The translations under genes and the position numbers were made by a program. DNA of 64,000 nt from Firmicutes bacterium HGW-Firmicutes-14 (GTDB taxonomy: Bacteria > Bacillota > Thermincolia > Thermincolales > UBA2595), in contig PHAB01000015.1 of assembly GCA_002840275.1 (NCBI GenBank), positions 1-64,000 on the forward strand. Direction: 5' to 3'. The first letter of the stretch is position 1. The number at the start of each line of letters is the position of its first letter. Below, in pieces: positions 4,055-15,182 of the stretch. The notes beneath the pieces are model-generated. The model saw nothing but the letters and a program-made list of their open reading frames with translations, was not told the DNA's origin and did no database searches.

Positions 4055-4522
4055 ATGTTGAGAGACAGTATTTTAGCGGGCGCCACAGCCGGTATGGCAG
4101 CGACCCTGATTAAGAACATACCAAACCTTATCCTCTGGAAGACGGGGATAGTGGAGTACATTTATTTTCACCTGGCCGCTTCAGCTTTAATAAGCCCTAA
4201 TGAAGTCGGCTCCCCTATAGGACTGTTAGTCGGGGTGGTAGTTGACATCATCACAGGAGGCACATTGGGCATACTGATTATATATTTTTTGAAGATAACA
4301 GGTAAGGATTACTGGTGGTTTAAGGGCCTGATTGTGGGCAACCTGATATGGTTGTGGGGCCTTGGAGTTGCCATTAACTTCGGTGTGGCCAGGATAGTCC
4401 CTCTCGACCCGGTTTTCCGGTTAACTTCTCTGATAGAGCACCAGATTTTTGGATTGGCAGGTTCTTTTCTGATAATACAATGGTATCCCGGAAGATTGGC
4501 GGGTATCCCGAATAAAGAGTAA
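4055..4522 (+). CDS. Putative integral membrane protein, unknown function
   Basis: A 155-residue protein with about four hydrophobic segments (roughly residues 8-25, 56-83, 92-112 and 128-148) and short polar loops, so almost certainly an inner-membrane protein. The start ATG 4055 follows GGGGAAGGACGG. I do not recognise a characterised family; charged residues within the membrane part are few (Asp64, Lys81, Lys84, Asp85), which gives no clear transport signature. It sits downstream of the CsoR-type operator and ends just before a strong terminator, so it is a single-gene unit. A role in thiol, metal or aldehyde stress is possible only by the operator. Confidence 0.7.
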   Translation: MLRDSILAGATAGMAATLIKNIPNLILWKTGIVEYIYFHLAASALISPNEVGSPIGLLVGVVVDIITGGTLGILIIYFLKITGKDYWWFKGLIVGNLIWLWGLGVAINFGVARIVPLDPVFRLTSLIEHQIFGLAGSFLIIQWYPGRLAGIPNKE

Positions 4523-4532
4523 GTTTAACGAC

Positions 4533-4562
4533 AAAAGGCCTTCGTTTTAACGAAGGCCTTTT
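4533..4562. terminator. Bidirectional intrinsic terminator
   Basis: AAAAGGCCTTCG (4533-4544) and CGAAGGCCTTTT (4551-4562) form a 12-base stem with a six-base loop, with T-runs on both strands. It ends the membrane protein gene on the plus strand and the tiny gene 4577-4663 on the minus strand. Confidence 0.9.
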
Positions 4563-4870: not shown

Positions 4871-5716
4871 ATGGAAGAAATAAAAGCATGGAAAATAAAC
4901 GGATTTGCCGGGGTTTTGGCGGTGCTGGCACTGGTGGCTGCAGCTGTTTTTCTCTTTACCGGCCAGAACTTTTTCGCCGGTATCCTGATGATCATTATTG
5001 CATCTCTCACAGCAAGCGGAATAATAGTAGTCCAGCCGAACCAGGCTTTGGCCCTCACCTTCTTTGGCGCTTATAAGGGAACTGTCAGGGACAGCGGCAT
5101 CTGGCTGACAATTCCCCTCTGTATTCGGAAAAAGGTTTCTCTTCGGGTCCGTAACTTTAACAGTGCAAAACTGAAAGTAAATGATGTGGAGGGCAACCCG
5201 GTAGAAATAGCGGCTGTTGTAGTATTCAGAGTGGTAGATTCAGCGAAGGCATTGTTTGATGTAGACGATTATGAAGAATTTGTGGAGATTCAGAGTGAAA
5301 CCGCCCTTCGCCATGTGGCCACAAAGTATCCCTATGACCTATTTGAGGATGATGGATACTCCCTGAGAGGAAATGCTGAGGAAGTGGCAGAGGAATTAGC
5401 CCGGGAACTCCAGATCCGCTTGGCGGTAGCCGGAGTGGAGGTAATGGAAGCCAGGCTTACCCACCTGGCCTATGCAACGGAAATTGCCAGTGCCATGCTG
5501 CAAAGGCAGCAGGCTTCAGCTATTGTTTCCGCGCGCCAGAAAATCGTGGAAGGAGCCGTTGGAATGGCCCATATGGCTATTGAGATGCTTCAGAAGGACA
5601 ATATAGTAGAACTGGATGAAGAGCGCAAGGTTGCGATGATAAATAATTTAATGGTCGCAATTGTTGCTGAGCGGGCTGCCCAGCCGGTAATAAATACAGG
5701 AAGCCTTTATCAGTAA
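4871..5716 (+). CDS. SPFH/Band-7 domain membrane protein
   Basis: A 281-residue member of the stomatin/prohibitin/flotillin (SPFH) superfamily. Two close hydrophobic segments (about 10-30 and 33-50) form an N-terminal membrane hairpin, then the SPFH domain starts at VVQPNQALALTFFGAYKGTVRDSG and runs to about 210, followed by a helical, alanine- and glutamine-rich oligomerisation tail. Start ATG 4871 is set by GGAGGGAG; a longer frame from 4832 lacks a ribosome binding site. SPFH proteins form membrane scaffolds and often control proteases, but no NfeD or protease partner is adjacent. It forms an operon with the ribbon-helix-helix gene 15 bases downstream. Confidence 0.9.
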   Translation: MEEIKAWKINGFAGVLAVLALVAAAVFLFTGQNFFAGILMIIIASLTASGIIVVQPNQALALTFFGAYKGTVRDSGIWLTIPLCIRKKVSLRVRNFNSAKLKVNDVEGNPVEIAAVVVFRVVDSAKALFDVDDYEEFVEIQSETALRHVATKYPYDLFEDDGYSLRGNAEEVAEELARELQIRLAVAGVEVMEARLTHLAYATEIASAMLQRQQASAIVSARQKIVEGAVGMAHMAIEMLQKDNIVELDEERKVAMINNLMVAIVAERAAQPVINTGSLYQ

Positions 5717-6388: not shown

Positions 6389-7507
6389 TCACTGCTGCTT
6401 GGTTTCCAGGGGGGTCTCAAAATAAACGCTGGTGCTGGGAAATGCTACTGATACCCCTTCTTTCTCAAGAATCTCCATAATTTTAAAGTTGATATCTTCT
6501 TTAACCCTCAGGAATTCTCCCCAGACGGTTGTTACGGTGAAAAAATACAGGAAGATATCAAGGCTGCTGGCCCCGAAGGAATCAAAACGTACGAAAATTG
6601 TCTCCGGGTGAATTTCCGGGTGGGTTTCCAGCATGTTTTTAATTTCAGTAACACATTTCTTGATCTTTTCCCGGGAGGTATCATAAGTTACTCCCAGGTT
6701 AAAGGTTATTCTCCTCATCCCCATCCGGGTATAATTAGTGACCGGTTCATTAGCCAGGGTTGCATTTGGCACGGTCACCACTGCCTGGGCAAAAGTCCTT
6801 ATTTTGGTGCTGCGGAAATTGATGTCCTCAACGACGCCTTCCACGCTGGGGGTCGATATCCAGTCACCGATTGAAAAGGGTTTGTCTGTGATGATTACAA
6901 CTCCGCCGAAGATATTGGCGGCAGAGTCTTTTGCCGCCAGGGCAAATGCCAGCCCCCCGAGACCAAGTCCGGCAATAAGACTGCTTACATTATAATCCCA
7001 TTCCTGGGCTATTATGGTGACGGCAAAGGCAATAATCACAACCTTCAAGACTTTGGAAAAGAAGGGGACAAGAAGCTTATCAACAGAAATCCCCCAGATA
7101 CTATGCATGTCCTCAGTAATACATTCATAGCATCCGAAAAAATTATAAAATCCGGTTGCGATAAGAATAAGCAGGGATGAACGGAATACCCTGGACAGCA
7201 AGAGATTATGCTCAGGGCTGAGGGGTAGGTAGAGAAGGGACAGGTAAATGCCCAGGAAAACGAAAAATATCTGCAGCGGCTTTTGGAAGGCATCAATAAT
7301 GTGGTCATCTAATCGGGTTTTTGTTTTATCGGTAAACCTTGACAAAAGTTTGAAAATATAGCGGGTCACTACTTTTCTGAATACCCAGAAACAAATGAAT
7401 ATGGAAAATGCGATTCCGACTTTCACGGCTATTCCGGTAATGTCCGAACCACCCAGGGCATCTAAGTTTTGTTGAAGGCCTTTTAAATAATTGGGGAGTT
7501 CCGGCAT
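6389..7507 (-). CDS. MscS-family mechanosensitive channel
   Basis: Small-conductance mechanosensitive channel family, 372 residues, longer than E. coli MscS (286) because of extra N-terminal membrane segments (about 24-45, 77-97, 107-127, 145-168). The pore-lining region is the Gly/Ala-rich segment SSLIAGLGLGGLAFALAAKD, followed by the beta domain (IGDWISTPSVEGVVEDINFRSTKIRTF) and the C-terminal alpha/beta vestibule. Start ATG 7507 is preceded by AGGAGGTG on the minus strand. Expected role: release of solutes on hypo-osmotic shock. It is close in layout to YkuT/YbdG-type channels; exact subfamily is not decided. Confidence 0.92.
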   Translation of the reverse strand: MPELPNYLKGLQQNLDALGGSDITGIAVKVGIAFSIFICFWVFRKVVTRYIFKLLSRFTDKTKTRLDDHIIDAFQKPLQIFFVFLGIYLSLLYLPLSPEHNLLLSRVFRSSLLILIATGFYNFFGCYECITEDMHSIWGISVDKLLVPFFSKVLKVVIIAFAVTIIAQEWDYNVSSLIAGLGLGGLAFALAAKDSAANIFGGVVIITDKPFSIGDWISTPSVEGVVEDINFRSTKIRTFAQAVVTVPNATLANEPVTNYTRMGMRRITFNLGVTYDTSREKIKKCVTEIKNMLETHPEIHPETIFVRFDSFGASSLDIFLYFFTVTTVWGEFLRVKEDINFKIMEILEKEGVSVAFPSTSVYFETPLETKQQ

Positions 7508-7619
7508 TTGTTCACCTCCTGCAGGTGTGCACTGAAAAAAGGCATAACAATTCTCTTAAATTATGTATACTCCGGCCGTTTAGCGAATTCCTCCCTATTC
7601 TTAAATATTTAGCCGGGGT

Positions 7620-7654
7620 TAGTAAAAGCCTTTACGGCGTAAAGGCTTTTACTA
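7620..7654 (-). terminator. Hairpin after the DUF1657 gene
   Basis: A perfect 16-base inverted repeat (7620-7635 and 7639-7654) around a three-base loop lies 10 bases after the minus-strand DUF1657 stop. It contains a GCCTTTAC core and T-rich end on the minus strand and is best read as that gene's terminator. Confidence 0.75.
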
Positions 7655-7664
7655 AATATTGATT

Positions 7665-7892
7665 TTATTGTTTCTGCTGCTGTTGCTGGCTGATTTTATA
7701 CTGCGGCTCTTGTTCTTCGATATAATTGACACGACCCCGCAGTGAGTTACAAATGTTGTCCAGCTGGCCGCTCAGGTCGTTAAACATCTGCTGGGCATTT
7801 TTATCCTGGGTATCCACAGCAAACGTCTTCAGGCTGGCAGCGGCACTTTCAAGACTGGATAAGGTTTGATGCATTTTATCTCCTACAGTCAA
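7665..7892 (-). CDS. DUF1657 family protein
   Basis: A 75-residue protein with the near-complete DUF1657 text: MTVGDKMHQTLSSLESAAAS, SLKTFAVDTQD, and LRGRVNYIEEQEPQYKI, then a glutamine run (QQQQQKQ). The family is small, helical and almost restricted to spore formers, where it often sits near spoVA or YtfJ-type genes; its biochemical role is unknown. Start is TTG at 7892, eight bases after AAAGGAGGA. Here it is alone, transcribed away from the short transcription units at 8.0-8.5 kb. Confidence 0.9.
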   Translation of the reverse strand: MTVGDKMHQTLSSLESAAASLKTFAVDTQDKNAQQMFNDLSGQLDNICNSLRGRVNYIEEQEPQYKISQQQQQKQ

Positions 7893-8025
7893 TCAATTTC
7901 TCCTCCTTTATTTTTAATCTTATCATGATAATATCTTTTCACAATTTAAAAAAACAATACCGGAATTAATTGGTTTGTTTTCTTGGGTATACATAAGATT
8001 TCGGATATGAGGAATAATTTACTTG

Positions 8026-8119
8026 TTAACAGAAATTGAAAAATAGGCGATAATAAAGGCAGGAGATTCTCATTCTCCTAAAATCCCCATATTCCACCCG
8101 TCAAGGGTGGATTTTTTTT
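8026..8119 (+). ncRNA. Candidate small RNA 1 with own promoter and terminator
   Basis: TTAACA (8026-8031) and GATAAT (8049-8054) are 17 bases apart. A transcript from about 8061 would be roughly 58 bases: a first hairpin (AGGAGA/TCTCCT, 8061-8079) and a second, TCCACCC/GGGTGGA (8093-8099, 8105-8111) followed by eight T. The terminator works only on the plus strand, and no plus-strand gene lies upstream (mscS and DUF1657 run the other way), so it must end something that starts here. No open frame of note is inside. I know no matching Rfam family. Confidence 0.5.
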
Positions 8120-8129
8120 CTTTGGCCCT

Positions 8130-8219
8130 TTGACATCATGGACTGTTTTGCGCAATAATATAAGTGAAATGCATAACAAGTGAGGCCGCCCAGAGCCCTG
8201 ACCACCGGGGCTTTTTTAT
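8130..8219 (+). ncRNA. Candidate small RNA 2 with own promoter and terminator
   Basis: TTGACA (8130-8135) and AATAAT (8154-8159) with an 18-base spacer form a good promoter. Transcription from about 8166 would end at a stem AGCCC/GGGGCT (about 8193-8213) followed by six T, giving a transcript of roughly 54 bases. It holds only a four-codon frame (ATG CAT AAC AAG TGA), so a non-coding RNA or a minimal leader is the likely product. Confidence 0.5.
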
Positions 8220-8304
8220 TTGGCAGTATTCATATCCAACCACCGGGGTCATATAATTTAATAAGAACATCAAGCATGAATATTATGCAGAGGGGTGATT
8301 CAGT

Positions 8305-8436
8305 GTGTGTGAAGAGGCATGTTTGATTTGTGAACAATGTGACGATTACAAAAATGGCTGCCAGGGTCAAATAGGGACCTTTGATAACGAATTCTGTCCC
8401 TCGGCTATAATTGATGATAAGGTAATTGTGAACTGA
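8305..8436 (+). CDS. Tiny cysteine-rich protein (43 residues)
   Basis: GTG 8305 follows AGGGGTGA and opens 43 codons with six cysteines: C2, C6, C9, C12, C19 and C31 (MCEEACLICEQCDDYKNGC). C6-x2-C9-x2-C12 resembles ferredoxin or zinc-knuckle spacing. A promoter candidate (TTCATA 8229-8234, TATAAT 8252-8257, spacer 17) lies upstream and an intrinsic terminator follows at 8444, so the frame has its own transcription unit. No signal peptide is seen. Family unknown; a metal or Fe-S binding role is an inference from the cysteines. Confidence 0.6.
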   Translation: MCEEACLICEQCDDYKNGCQGQIGTFDNEFCPSAIIDDKVIVN

Positions 8437-8443
8437 AGTTCAG

Positions 8444-8475
8444 AGGCTTATCCCAAAACGGGGATAGGCCTTTTT
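8444..8475 (+). terminator. Intrinsic terminator of the 43-residue gene
   Basis: AGGCTTATCCC (8444-8454) pairs with GGGGATAGGCCT (8460-8471) with one mismatch, followed by a T-run. From 8476 to 8590 I see nothing besides the likely leader of the ABC transporter operon. Confidence 0.85.
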
Positions 8476-8590
8476 ATATTGCTGTTGAACTAACTGTTCC
8501 CTAAACGAAATTTTTCCGGTAAGGAATAAGGATTTTTTCAGGGGCAAAAATAGATTTGAAAACATCGTAAACGAATTGAGGTAATAATGA

Positions 8591-9343
8591 GTGGTTGTTC
8601 ACATAGAGGGCATGGACAAAATATATGGCAGAGGCGATTCTAAGGTAAGCGCCCTAAAAAAAATAAACCTGGACATATACCAGGGAGAAATTATGGCCAT
8701 CATGGGGCCGTCCGGTTCAGGCAAATCAACCCTGATGAATATTATCGGGTTTTTGGACAGACCCACATTCGGAATTTACGAGTTTGATGGGCGCAGGGTT
8801 GATAAACTAAATGATAATAAACTGGCGGAACTGCGGAACCGGCATATAGGTTTCGTTTTCCAGAATTTCAACCTTCTTCCCAGGTTATCAGCCTTGGCCA
8901 ATGTGGAATTACCGATGATTTATGCCGGTGTTTCGGCCAGGAAAAGGCTAAGGGTAGCAAAAGAATTGCTGGAGGTTGTAGGGCTGAAGGAACGATTGAA
9001 ACATAAACCTAATGAACTTTCGGGTGGACAGAAACAAAGGGTGGCTATTGCCAGGGCTCTTGTTAACCACCCATCCATATTACTGGCTGATGAGCCTACC
9101 GGCAATCTGGATTCCAAATCGGGAGCGGAAATAATAAATCTGTTTGATACCCTTAACAGTATCGGAGTTACAGTAGTCCTGGTGACTCATGACCGGGAAG
9201 TGGCCATGAAGACTGACCGTATAATCTATTTAAGGGACGGTAAAATCGTGTCTGATACAAAGATTAGAAACCTCCCGGAGAATTACCCCGGGTATGCTCT
9301 TAAAACGAATGAAACGGCAGGGATGCGGATTGAAGGTCTTTGA
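8591..9343 (+). CDS. ABC transporter ATP-binding protein (MacB/LolD type)
   Basis: ATPase subunit of a MacB-type (type VII) ABC system, 250 residues. Walker A GPSGSGKST, Q-loop VFQNFNLLP, signature LSGGQKQRVAIARAL, Walker B LLADEPTGNLD and H-loop VTHD are all intact. The C-terminal tail of about 30 residues is longer than in LolD. Start is GTG 8591 with GAGGT upstream. The stop overlaps the start of the permease gene, so the two are translated together. Such pairs act by mechanotransmission on periplasmic or surface substrates such as peptides or antibiotics; no adaptor (MacA-like) gene is present, so the substrate is open. Confidence 0.93.
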   Translation: MVVHIEGMDKIYGRGDSKVSALKKINLDIYQGEIMAIMGPSGSGKSTLMNIIGFLDRPTFGIYEFDGRRVDKLNDNKLAELRNRHIGFVFQNFNLLPRLSALANVELPMIYAGVSARKRLRVAKELLEVVGLKERLKHKPNELSGGQKQRVAIARALVNHPSILLADEPTGNLDSKSGAEIINLFDTLNSIGVTVVLVTHDREVAMKTDRIIYLRDGKIVSDTKIRNLPENYPGYALKTNETAGMRIEGL

Positions 9344-12709: not shown

Positions 12710-12972
12710 GTTATAACCATTTGGATTAAAAGCAGTGAAGAGGAAAGCAGACTGAAATACCGCCTGCCAGAGAAAAAAGGCCGTGGCTGTAAGCCTTTTT
12801 CAGGACGGGCAGTCGAAATACCACCTCTGAGCTGCCGGGCTGAAATGAAGTATGCCCGGCCGGGACGCCCGTTACGCGTATCAAGGAGCCGGGTTTAGTA
12901 CCCGGAATCAGAGTGGAACCGCGGGAAGAACTCTCGTCTCTGGCAGAGCCGGAGATGCAGGGTTTTTTTATT
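12710..12972 (+). promoter_or_regulatory. T-box riboswitch (threonine) upstream of thrS
   Basis: The T-box sequence AGAGTGGAACCGCGGG is present at 12910-12925 and a competing terminator stem (about 12931-12956, GTCTCTGGC/GCCGGAGAT) with a T-run (12963-12969) follows. The leader between promoter and T-box folds into the expected Stem I region. ACC at 12820-12822, within CGAAATACCACC, is a good candidate for the threonine specifier. Uncharged tRNA-Thr would pair with specifier and T-box and let transcription reach thrS. This accounts for most of the gene-free stretch 12644-13046. Confidence 0.9.
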
Positions 12973-15009: not shown

Positions 15010-15150
15010 GAATTTTATACAGGTATTATTAAGCAGAAGCCATCCGCTTCTCACCTTATGACGCTGTTAGCTGTTAATAAGGTTAACCAAATATCCTTAT
15101 GGGATTTTCCAATGTTATTTGCGGGTGGTATTGACTACCCGTTTTTTTAT
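15010..15150 (+). promoter_or_regulatory. L20-type leader with attenuator terminator
   Basis: A leader of about 170 bases separates promoter and infC and ends in an intrinsic terminator (CGGGT 15122-15126, ACCCG 15137-15141, then seven T). In Bacillus, ribosomal protein L20 binds the leader of infC-rpmI-rplT and favours termination; the position, gene order and terminator fit that Rfam L20 leader. The L20-binding fold itself is inferred, not traced base by base. Confidence 0.7.
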
Positions 15151-15182
15151 TCTACCGAAATCAGATTTGGAGGTGGGCCCTA

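Follow-up and report, generated by a model that had tools for sequence, protein, structure and literature searches.

A predicted small RNA of a Thermincolales bacterium, perfectly antisense to the start region of an SLH-domain protein gene

Two short units, each running from a promoter to an intrinsic terminator, stand in tandem in the DNA stretch analysed here (the window, 64,000 nucleotides of a contig of Firmicutes bacterium HGW-Firmicutes-14), raising the question of whether they encode small RNAs and on which genes such RNAs would act. The first-pass annotation had proposed that both are small RNAs which, with no plus-strand gene upstream of either terminator, cannot be the ends of longer transcripts. 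Reading of the sequence and a scan found both units as described, at 8026-8119 (RNA1) and 8130-8222 (RNA2), and no plus-strand ORF of at least 60 amino acids within 6995-8591. The features of the locus are:

7665-7892, minus strand: DUF1657 gene (PF07870, E 5e-18), a divergent neighbour outside the RNA units
8026-8054, plus strand: RNA1 promoter, TTAACA-17-GATAAT, its -35 within a short palindrome (TTGTTAACAG)
8061-8119, plus strand: RNA1, a predicted small RNA of about 59 nt with a 5' hairpin, an antisense stretch and a terminator
8061-8079, plus strand: RNA1 5' hairpin, AGGAGA-UUCUCAU-UCUCCU, its loop complementary to the SLH start codon region
8067-8088, plus strand: RNA1 antisense stretch, 22 nt, complementary at every base to the SLH mRNA start at G000:C65:130180-130201
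8093-8119, plus strand: RNA1 intrinsic terminator, a 7-bp stem and T8
8130-8159, plus strand: RNA2 promoter, TTGACA-18-AATAAT
8166-8222, plus strand: RNA2, a short terminated transcript or the attenuated leader of the Cys-rich gene
8192-8222, plus strand: RNA2 terminator, a 9-bp stem and T-tract
8305-8436, plus strand: gene for a Cys-rich 43-aa protein, GTG start (CEEACLICEQCDDYKNGCQGQIG...FCPS), with its own terminator at 8442-8473

Promoter matches taken alone are at chance level (6 in 3 kb, against 5.9 +/- 3.1 in shuffles), which, together with the fact that the units are known from sequence alone, speaks for reading both as transcription noise or decayed leaders, and the antisense match as a functionless inverted copy of the SLH start. 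Terminators exceed chance (9 against 3.5 +/- 2.0 in shuffles of 3 kb). In a stricter scan of the 64 kb, three distinct plus-strand places (RNA1, RNA2 and 4454-4558) and no minus-strand place had a promoter followed by a terminator at a distance of 25-110 nt, and the combination was absent when one strand was scanned in each of six 64-kb sequences simulated by an order-1 Markov model. RNA1 folds into two hairpins and beats 200/200 shuffles (z -5.1); the fold of RNA2 is less clear (z -1.69, with 12 of 200 shuffles equally good) and consists mostly of the terminator. A protein-coding role for RNA1 was rejected, its sequence between AGGAG and the terminator stem containing no ATG, GTG or TTG. The Rfam search suggested by the first-pass annotation yielded nothing for the locus: in release 15 neither RNA reaches the gathering score and no family falls at 7500-8700, and with lax thresholds the window and the stretch gave only weak matches of E 0.6 or worse, far below the cut-offs. 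Elsewhere in the same window, Rfam placed a T-box leader and an L20 leader at 12726-12944 and 15025-15156.

A candidate target for RNA1 emerged from its own genome (G000; 3.65 Mb, 67 contigs). At E <= 0.001, blastn of the stretch found there a single other match, a run of 22 identities with contig C65 on its opposite strand; when the limit was relaxed to E 10, the next-best match had E 0.08. The matched bases (GGGGATTTTAGGAGAATGAGAA) span the start of the gene for an 853-aa SLH protein from its Shine-Dalgarno G-tract to codon 2, ATG included, RNA1 positions 8071-8073 being complementary to the AUG and 8085-8088 to the GGGG of the Shine-Dalgarno sequence. With up to three mismatches allowed, the 22-mer occurs in this genome only in RNA1 itself and at the SLH start (backward control, 0), and the chance expectation of an exact match is about 1.8e-5 genome-wide, or about 2e-7 if it must lie over a start codon. 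The predicted duplex has an energy of -43.8 kcal/mol. Among 112 start regions, sampled from part of the genome, that of the SLH gene ranks first (-41.7 kcal/mol; second -31.9; mean -18.5, sd 5.6), and it is bound less well by all of 1000 shuffled versions of the 5' part of RNA1. RNA1 lies on C28 and its target on C65, so that the two are separately encoded, as for a trans-encoded RNA, and RNA1 is not the opposite strand of its target, as a cis-antisense RNA would be.

The 853-aa protein begins like a signal peptide and contains SLH domains (PF00395). All seven genomes read carry an ORF of 845-949 aa with the same type of start, and Pfam detected SLH in G000, G006 and G009. A CsaB-type polysaccharide pyruvyl transferase gene lies upstream in six genomes, that is, in all whose stretch reaches that far: it adjoins the SLH gene in G004, G005 and G006, and is separated from it by one gene in G001 and G002 and by two small genes in G000. 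An O-antigen-ligase-type gene directly follows the SLH gene in 7/7 genomes, including G009; the Pfam models for the pyruvyl transferase (PF04230) and the ligase (PF04932) were applied to G000 only. S-layer proteins that are anchored to a pyruvylated cell-wall polymer are usually encoded in such a csaB-type neighbourhood, and few cellular proteins are as abundant as S-layer proteins. The region 5' of the SLH gene (L093:7960-8196 and its equivalents) also contains a hairpin-like element, TTTCTAAAGGTA...CCTTTAG, kept in 7/7 genomes, and about 70-90 nt before the SLH start a TTGAAGGGGGTGTTGC-like block, less strictly conserved in the seven; Rfam gave no match on six S-layer loci, and these elements possibly represent a further control element.

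Ten genomes of the order were compared, the same ten as in the class-wide search, and the survey was extended beyond them by exact pattern scan only. RNA1 was found in six, namely G000, G002, G004, G006 and G008 of its own family (G000 being alone in its genus among the ten) and G009 of another family, whose copy was recovered by a model built without it (E 8e-5, rough). All five family loci keep the -10 GATAAT without change, and G009 has it too. The six pairs of the 5' hairpin are standard in all six sequences (36/36 cells), the changes being one-sided and G-U only, while two of the six terminator stem pairs changed on both sides among the six homologues. In the family loci, Band-7 and MscS genes (read in four loci) and a DUF1657 gene (read in three) are followed by RNA1, RNA2 and the Cys-rich gene (5/5), and then by a MacB-type ABC transporter, which did not appear in the part of G008 that was read. 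In G009, RNA1 is solitary, near a gene that we take to be comEA-like from a motif, and has a different terminator sequence with the core CAUUCUCCUAAAAUCCCC unaltered.

G005 (99% complete) and G001 (91%) possess the target site and no RNA1 was found in them, nor did G005 contain a clear copy of the XRE-RNA1-ABC block. Neither RNA1 nor target was found in G003 (61% complete) and G007 (63%), G003 having a MacB-type ABC gene with no RNA1 upstream; G008 has RNA1, and its SLH target was not found in the 75% complete assembly. CM matches at G003:C125 (E 0.015 with R1, 0.008 with R2), G005:C48, G000:C22 and G002:C55 are without the antisense core and were rejected as RNA1; further CM matches were G006:C14 (E 0.3) and two that are RNA1 itself read on the other strand. 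The pattern scan of genome contigs returned ten stretches, five from Thermincola; the other five (Cyclobacteriaceae, Hyphomicrobiaceae, a euryarchaeote, Lachnospiraceae and Lewinella) were attributed to chance, having neither RNA1 surroundings nor an in-frame SLH start, and two pattern matches at G005:C11 were rejected for the unrelated sequence around them.

The gene order beside RNA1 also bears on whether it could end a longer transcript. The earlier claim that it could not agrees with its own locus, which has no plus-strand ORF of at least 60 amino acids within 6995-8591, but is weaker in G002, G004, G006 and G008, where an XRE regulator gene lies on the same strand directly 5' of RNA1. In G000 the best XRE match (76% identical over 70 aa) is located apart from RNA1, at G000:C11:12612-12821. 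The -35 region of RNA1 in G006 is a long inverted repeat, ATTTCCAGTTAA-TAC-TTAACTGGAAAT, just 3' of the XRE gene (L097, about 5498-5545, minus strand), and constitutes a candidate operator.

Complementarity between RNA1 and the SLH start of the same genome is good in four of the six RNA1-bearing genomes, with cofold binding gains of -24.8 (G000), -23.3 (G004), -22.3 (G006) and -29.7 kcal/mol (G009), and the two partners changed jointly in two evolutionary contrasts. First, RNA1 UUCUCCU faces target AGGAGAA in G000, and UUCUUCU faces AGAAGAA in genus g5 (G004, G006); the hairpin partner base is still G in g5, so that the stem is reduced there to a G-U pair, as if the 3' arm tracked the target rather than the stem. 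Second, the SLH protein of G009 begins MKKF (AUGAAGAAGUUC), against MRKF in G000, with codons 2-4 differing, and the RNA1 loop of G009 (GAACUUCUUCAU, complement ...AUGAAGAAGUUC) fits this MKKF start, 26 of 27 bases being paired. When RNAs and targets were crossed, G009 RNA1 preferred its own target (-45.1 vs next -37.5 kcal/mol), as did G000 RNA1 (-43.8 vs next -37.1), and the g5 preference was slight and counts little (G006 RNA1, -37.2 on its own target vs -36.2 on that of G000). In G002 the SLH start has diverged and the cofold gain is just -7.0 kcal/mol; RNA1 there would thus have lost its SLH partner, or have others. Since G005 and G001 retain the site without a detected RNA1, something besides RNA1 must also conserve the SLH start sequence, and the case for pairing therefore consists of the match itself and the two contrasts. 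These matched changes in both partners, and the fact that six genomes of two families retain the promoter, the hairpin and the antisense core while other parts of RNA1 diverge, argue against transcription noise or an inverted copy without function, which we regard as very improbable. In all probability, RNA1 is a genuine small RNA that acts in trans.

We are largely confident in a more precise assignment, namely that RNA1, about 59 nt long, is a trans-encoded base-pairing small RNA which would repress translation of the SLH mRNA. The first contact would be made by the hairpin loop, UUCUCAU, with AUGAGAA in the mRNA start region; the stem would then open and pairing would spread into the 3' arm and on through the linker (UCUCCUAAAAUCCCC), so that the ribosome site is covered. 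The resulting duplex would block initiation and may attract RNase III. As the SLH match is kept even where both partners changed, RNA1 very probably lowers coat-protein synthesis, and that it would repress rather than activate is suggested by the site of pairing. The sequence itself does not give the direction, and S-layer mRNAs are usually abundant, two points in favour of RNA1 acting positively, with pairing protecting the SLH mRNA, or of a decoy arrangement in which this mRNA soaks up RNA1; the duplex, however, covers the Shine-Dalgarno sequence and AUG entirely, and pairing over both normally blocks initiation, which makes positive or decoy action unlikely. To judge from its pairing site, RNA1 is a ribosome-binding-site-occluding small RNA, of a known kind, with an unusual target.

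Whether a repressing RNA1 would serve the SLH mRNA alone is less clear. It could have several targets, the SLH mRNA being one and its C-rich anti-Shine-Dalgarno core (CUCCUAAAAUCCCC) a general seed: this core is retained in G002 despite the poor SLH pairing, and CUCCU/CCCC cores are able to bind many Shine-Dalgarno sequences, the second-best of the sampled start regions reaching -31.9 kcal/mol. Against this, the genome holds no other near-complementary site (up to three mismatches) and the RNA1 loop tracks the SLH codons in G009, so that a multi-target role deserves some credit and falls short of being probable. We tentatively propose, as a conjecture of similar standing, that RNA1 is a dedicated, one-target S-layer small RNA of the Thermincola lineage, which would co-evolve with the SLH start, be switched by the adjoining SinR-like repressor and remodel the coat of Gram-positives with metal-reducing named relatives. 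The SinR-like XRE regulator may, on slender grounds, control RNA1 through the -35 palindrome.

The second unit presents a different picture. Its position is kept in 5/5 family loci, with the promoter, a GTGAAA near the start and the terminator, while the sequence between varies; at the -35, TTTGAC is invariant in the three loci compared, and TTGAC followed by A or T is found in 5/5. Target prediction, which the first-pass annotation had listed as a check, returned the 22-nt perfectly antisense SLH start for RNA1 and no convincing antisense partner for RNA2 in its own genome (blastn to E 10, the best off-locus match in the RNA2 part of the query being at E 0.08); the best sampled start region for RNA2, at -38.4 kcal/mol, seems to involve its terminator stem. 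A homologue of the Cys-rich protein gene lies beside RNA1/RNA2 in all five family loci, following RNA2 in each. The 43-aa protein has no Pfam match and is possibly a metal or Fe-S binding microprotein. In G002 the T-tract runs directly into AATAAAGGGAGGGG and the start, leaving no room for another promoter, and since the terminator abuts the ribosome-binding site there, the Cys-rich gene must be reached by read-through or from an unseen promoter. These observations incline us slightly towards reading RNA2 as a 5' leader that belongs to the Cys-rich gene and carries a regulated terminator, an attenuator rather than an independent small RNA, even though G000 has a promoter-like TTCATA-17-TATAAT after the RNA2 terminator (8229-8257) and no conserved antiterminator was recognised in single-sequence folds. 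Of the two small RNAs originally proposed, RNA1 is thus strongly supported by its occurrence in six of ten genomes and its co-changing SLH match, and RNA2, with its variable interior, the lack of a convincing partner and the G002 terminator abutting the ribosome-binding site, is probably something more ordinary.

Small RNAs that cover the start region of abundant surface-protein mRNAs are known from enterics, where MicA, MicF and RybB act on outer-membrane proteins, and from S. aureus (RNAIII/spa). RNA1 resembles them in the surface-protein start region that it would cover, and differs from them in its S-layer target and in showing no kinship by Rfam. A literature search covering few subscription journals found, in the text available (including PMC5946031 and PMC8470499), no small RNA acting on S-layer protein translation and no account of small RNAs in Thermincola. 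A small RNA dedicated to the S-layer would therefore be, as far as these searches show, the first to act directly on S-layer protein translation; its match to a single start region, perfect over 22 nt and co-varying, would be an unusually clean case in Gram-positives, where small RNA targets are hard to predict, and coat control in Thermincola-type bacteria would become directly testable. Nc117 of Synechocystis is likewise a trans-encoded small RNA discussed in connection with the S-layer, but its named direct target, slr0007, encodes a sugar-nucleotide enzyme with a possible influence on LPS or on the glycosylation of the S-layer and is not an S-layer protein mRNA (PMC5946031). LhrA of Listeria and RsaA of Staphylococcus are trans-acting small RNAs for which translational control of a target mRNA has been reported (PMC3078929, PMC3961350), as is predicted here for RNA1 in another Gram-positive. 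RNA1 differs from both in its S-layer target, sequence kinship having been compared through Rfam only, and whereas RsaA is described as pairing at the Shine-Dalgarno sequence and a loop in an imperfect duplex (PMC3078929, PMC3961350), the duplex predicted for RNA1 is perfect over 22 nt.
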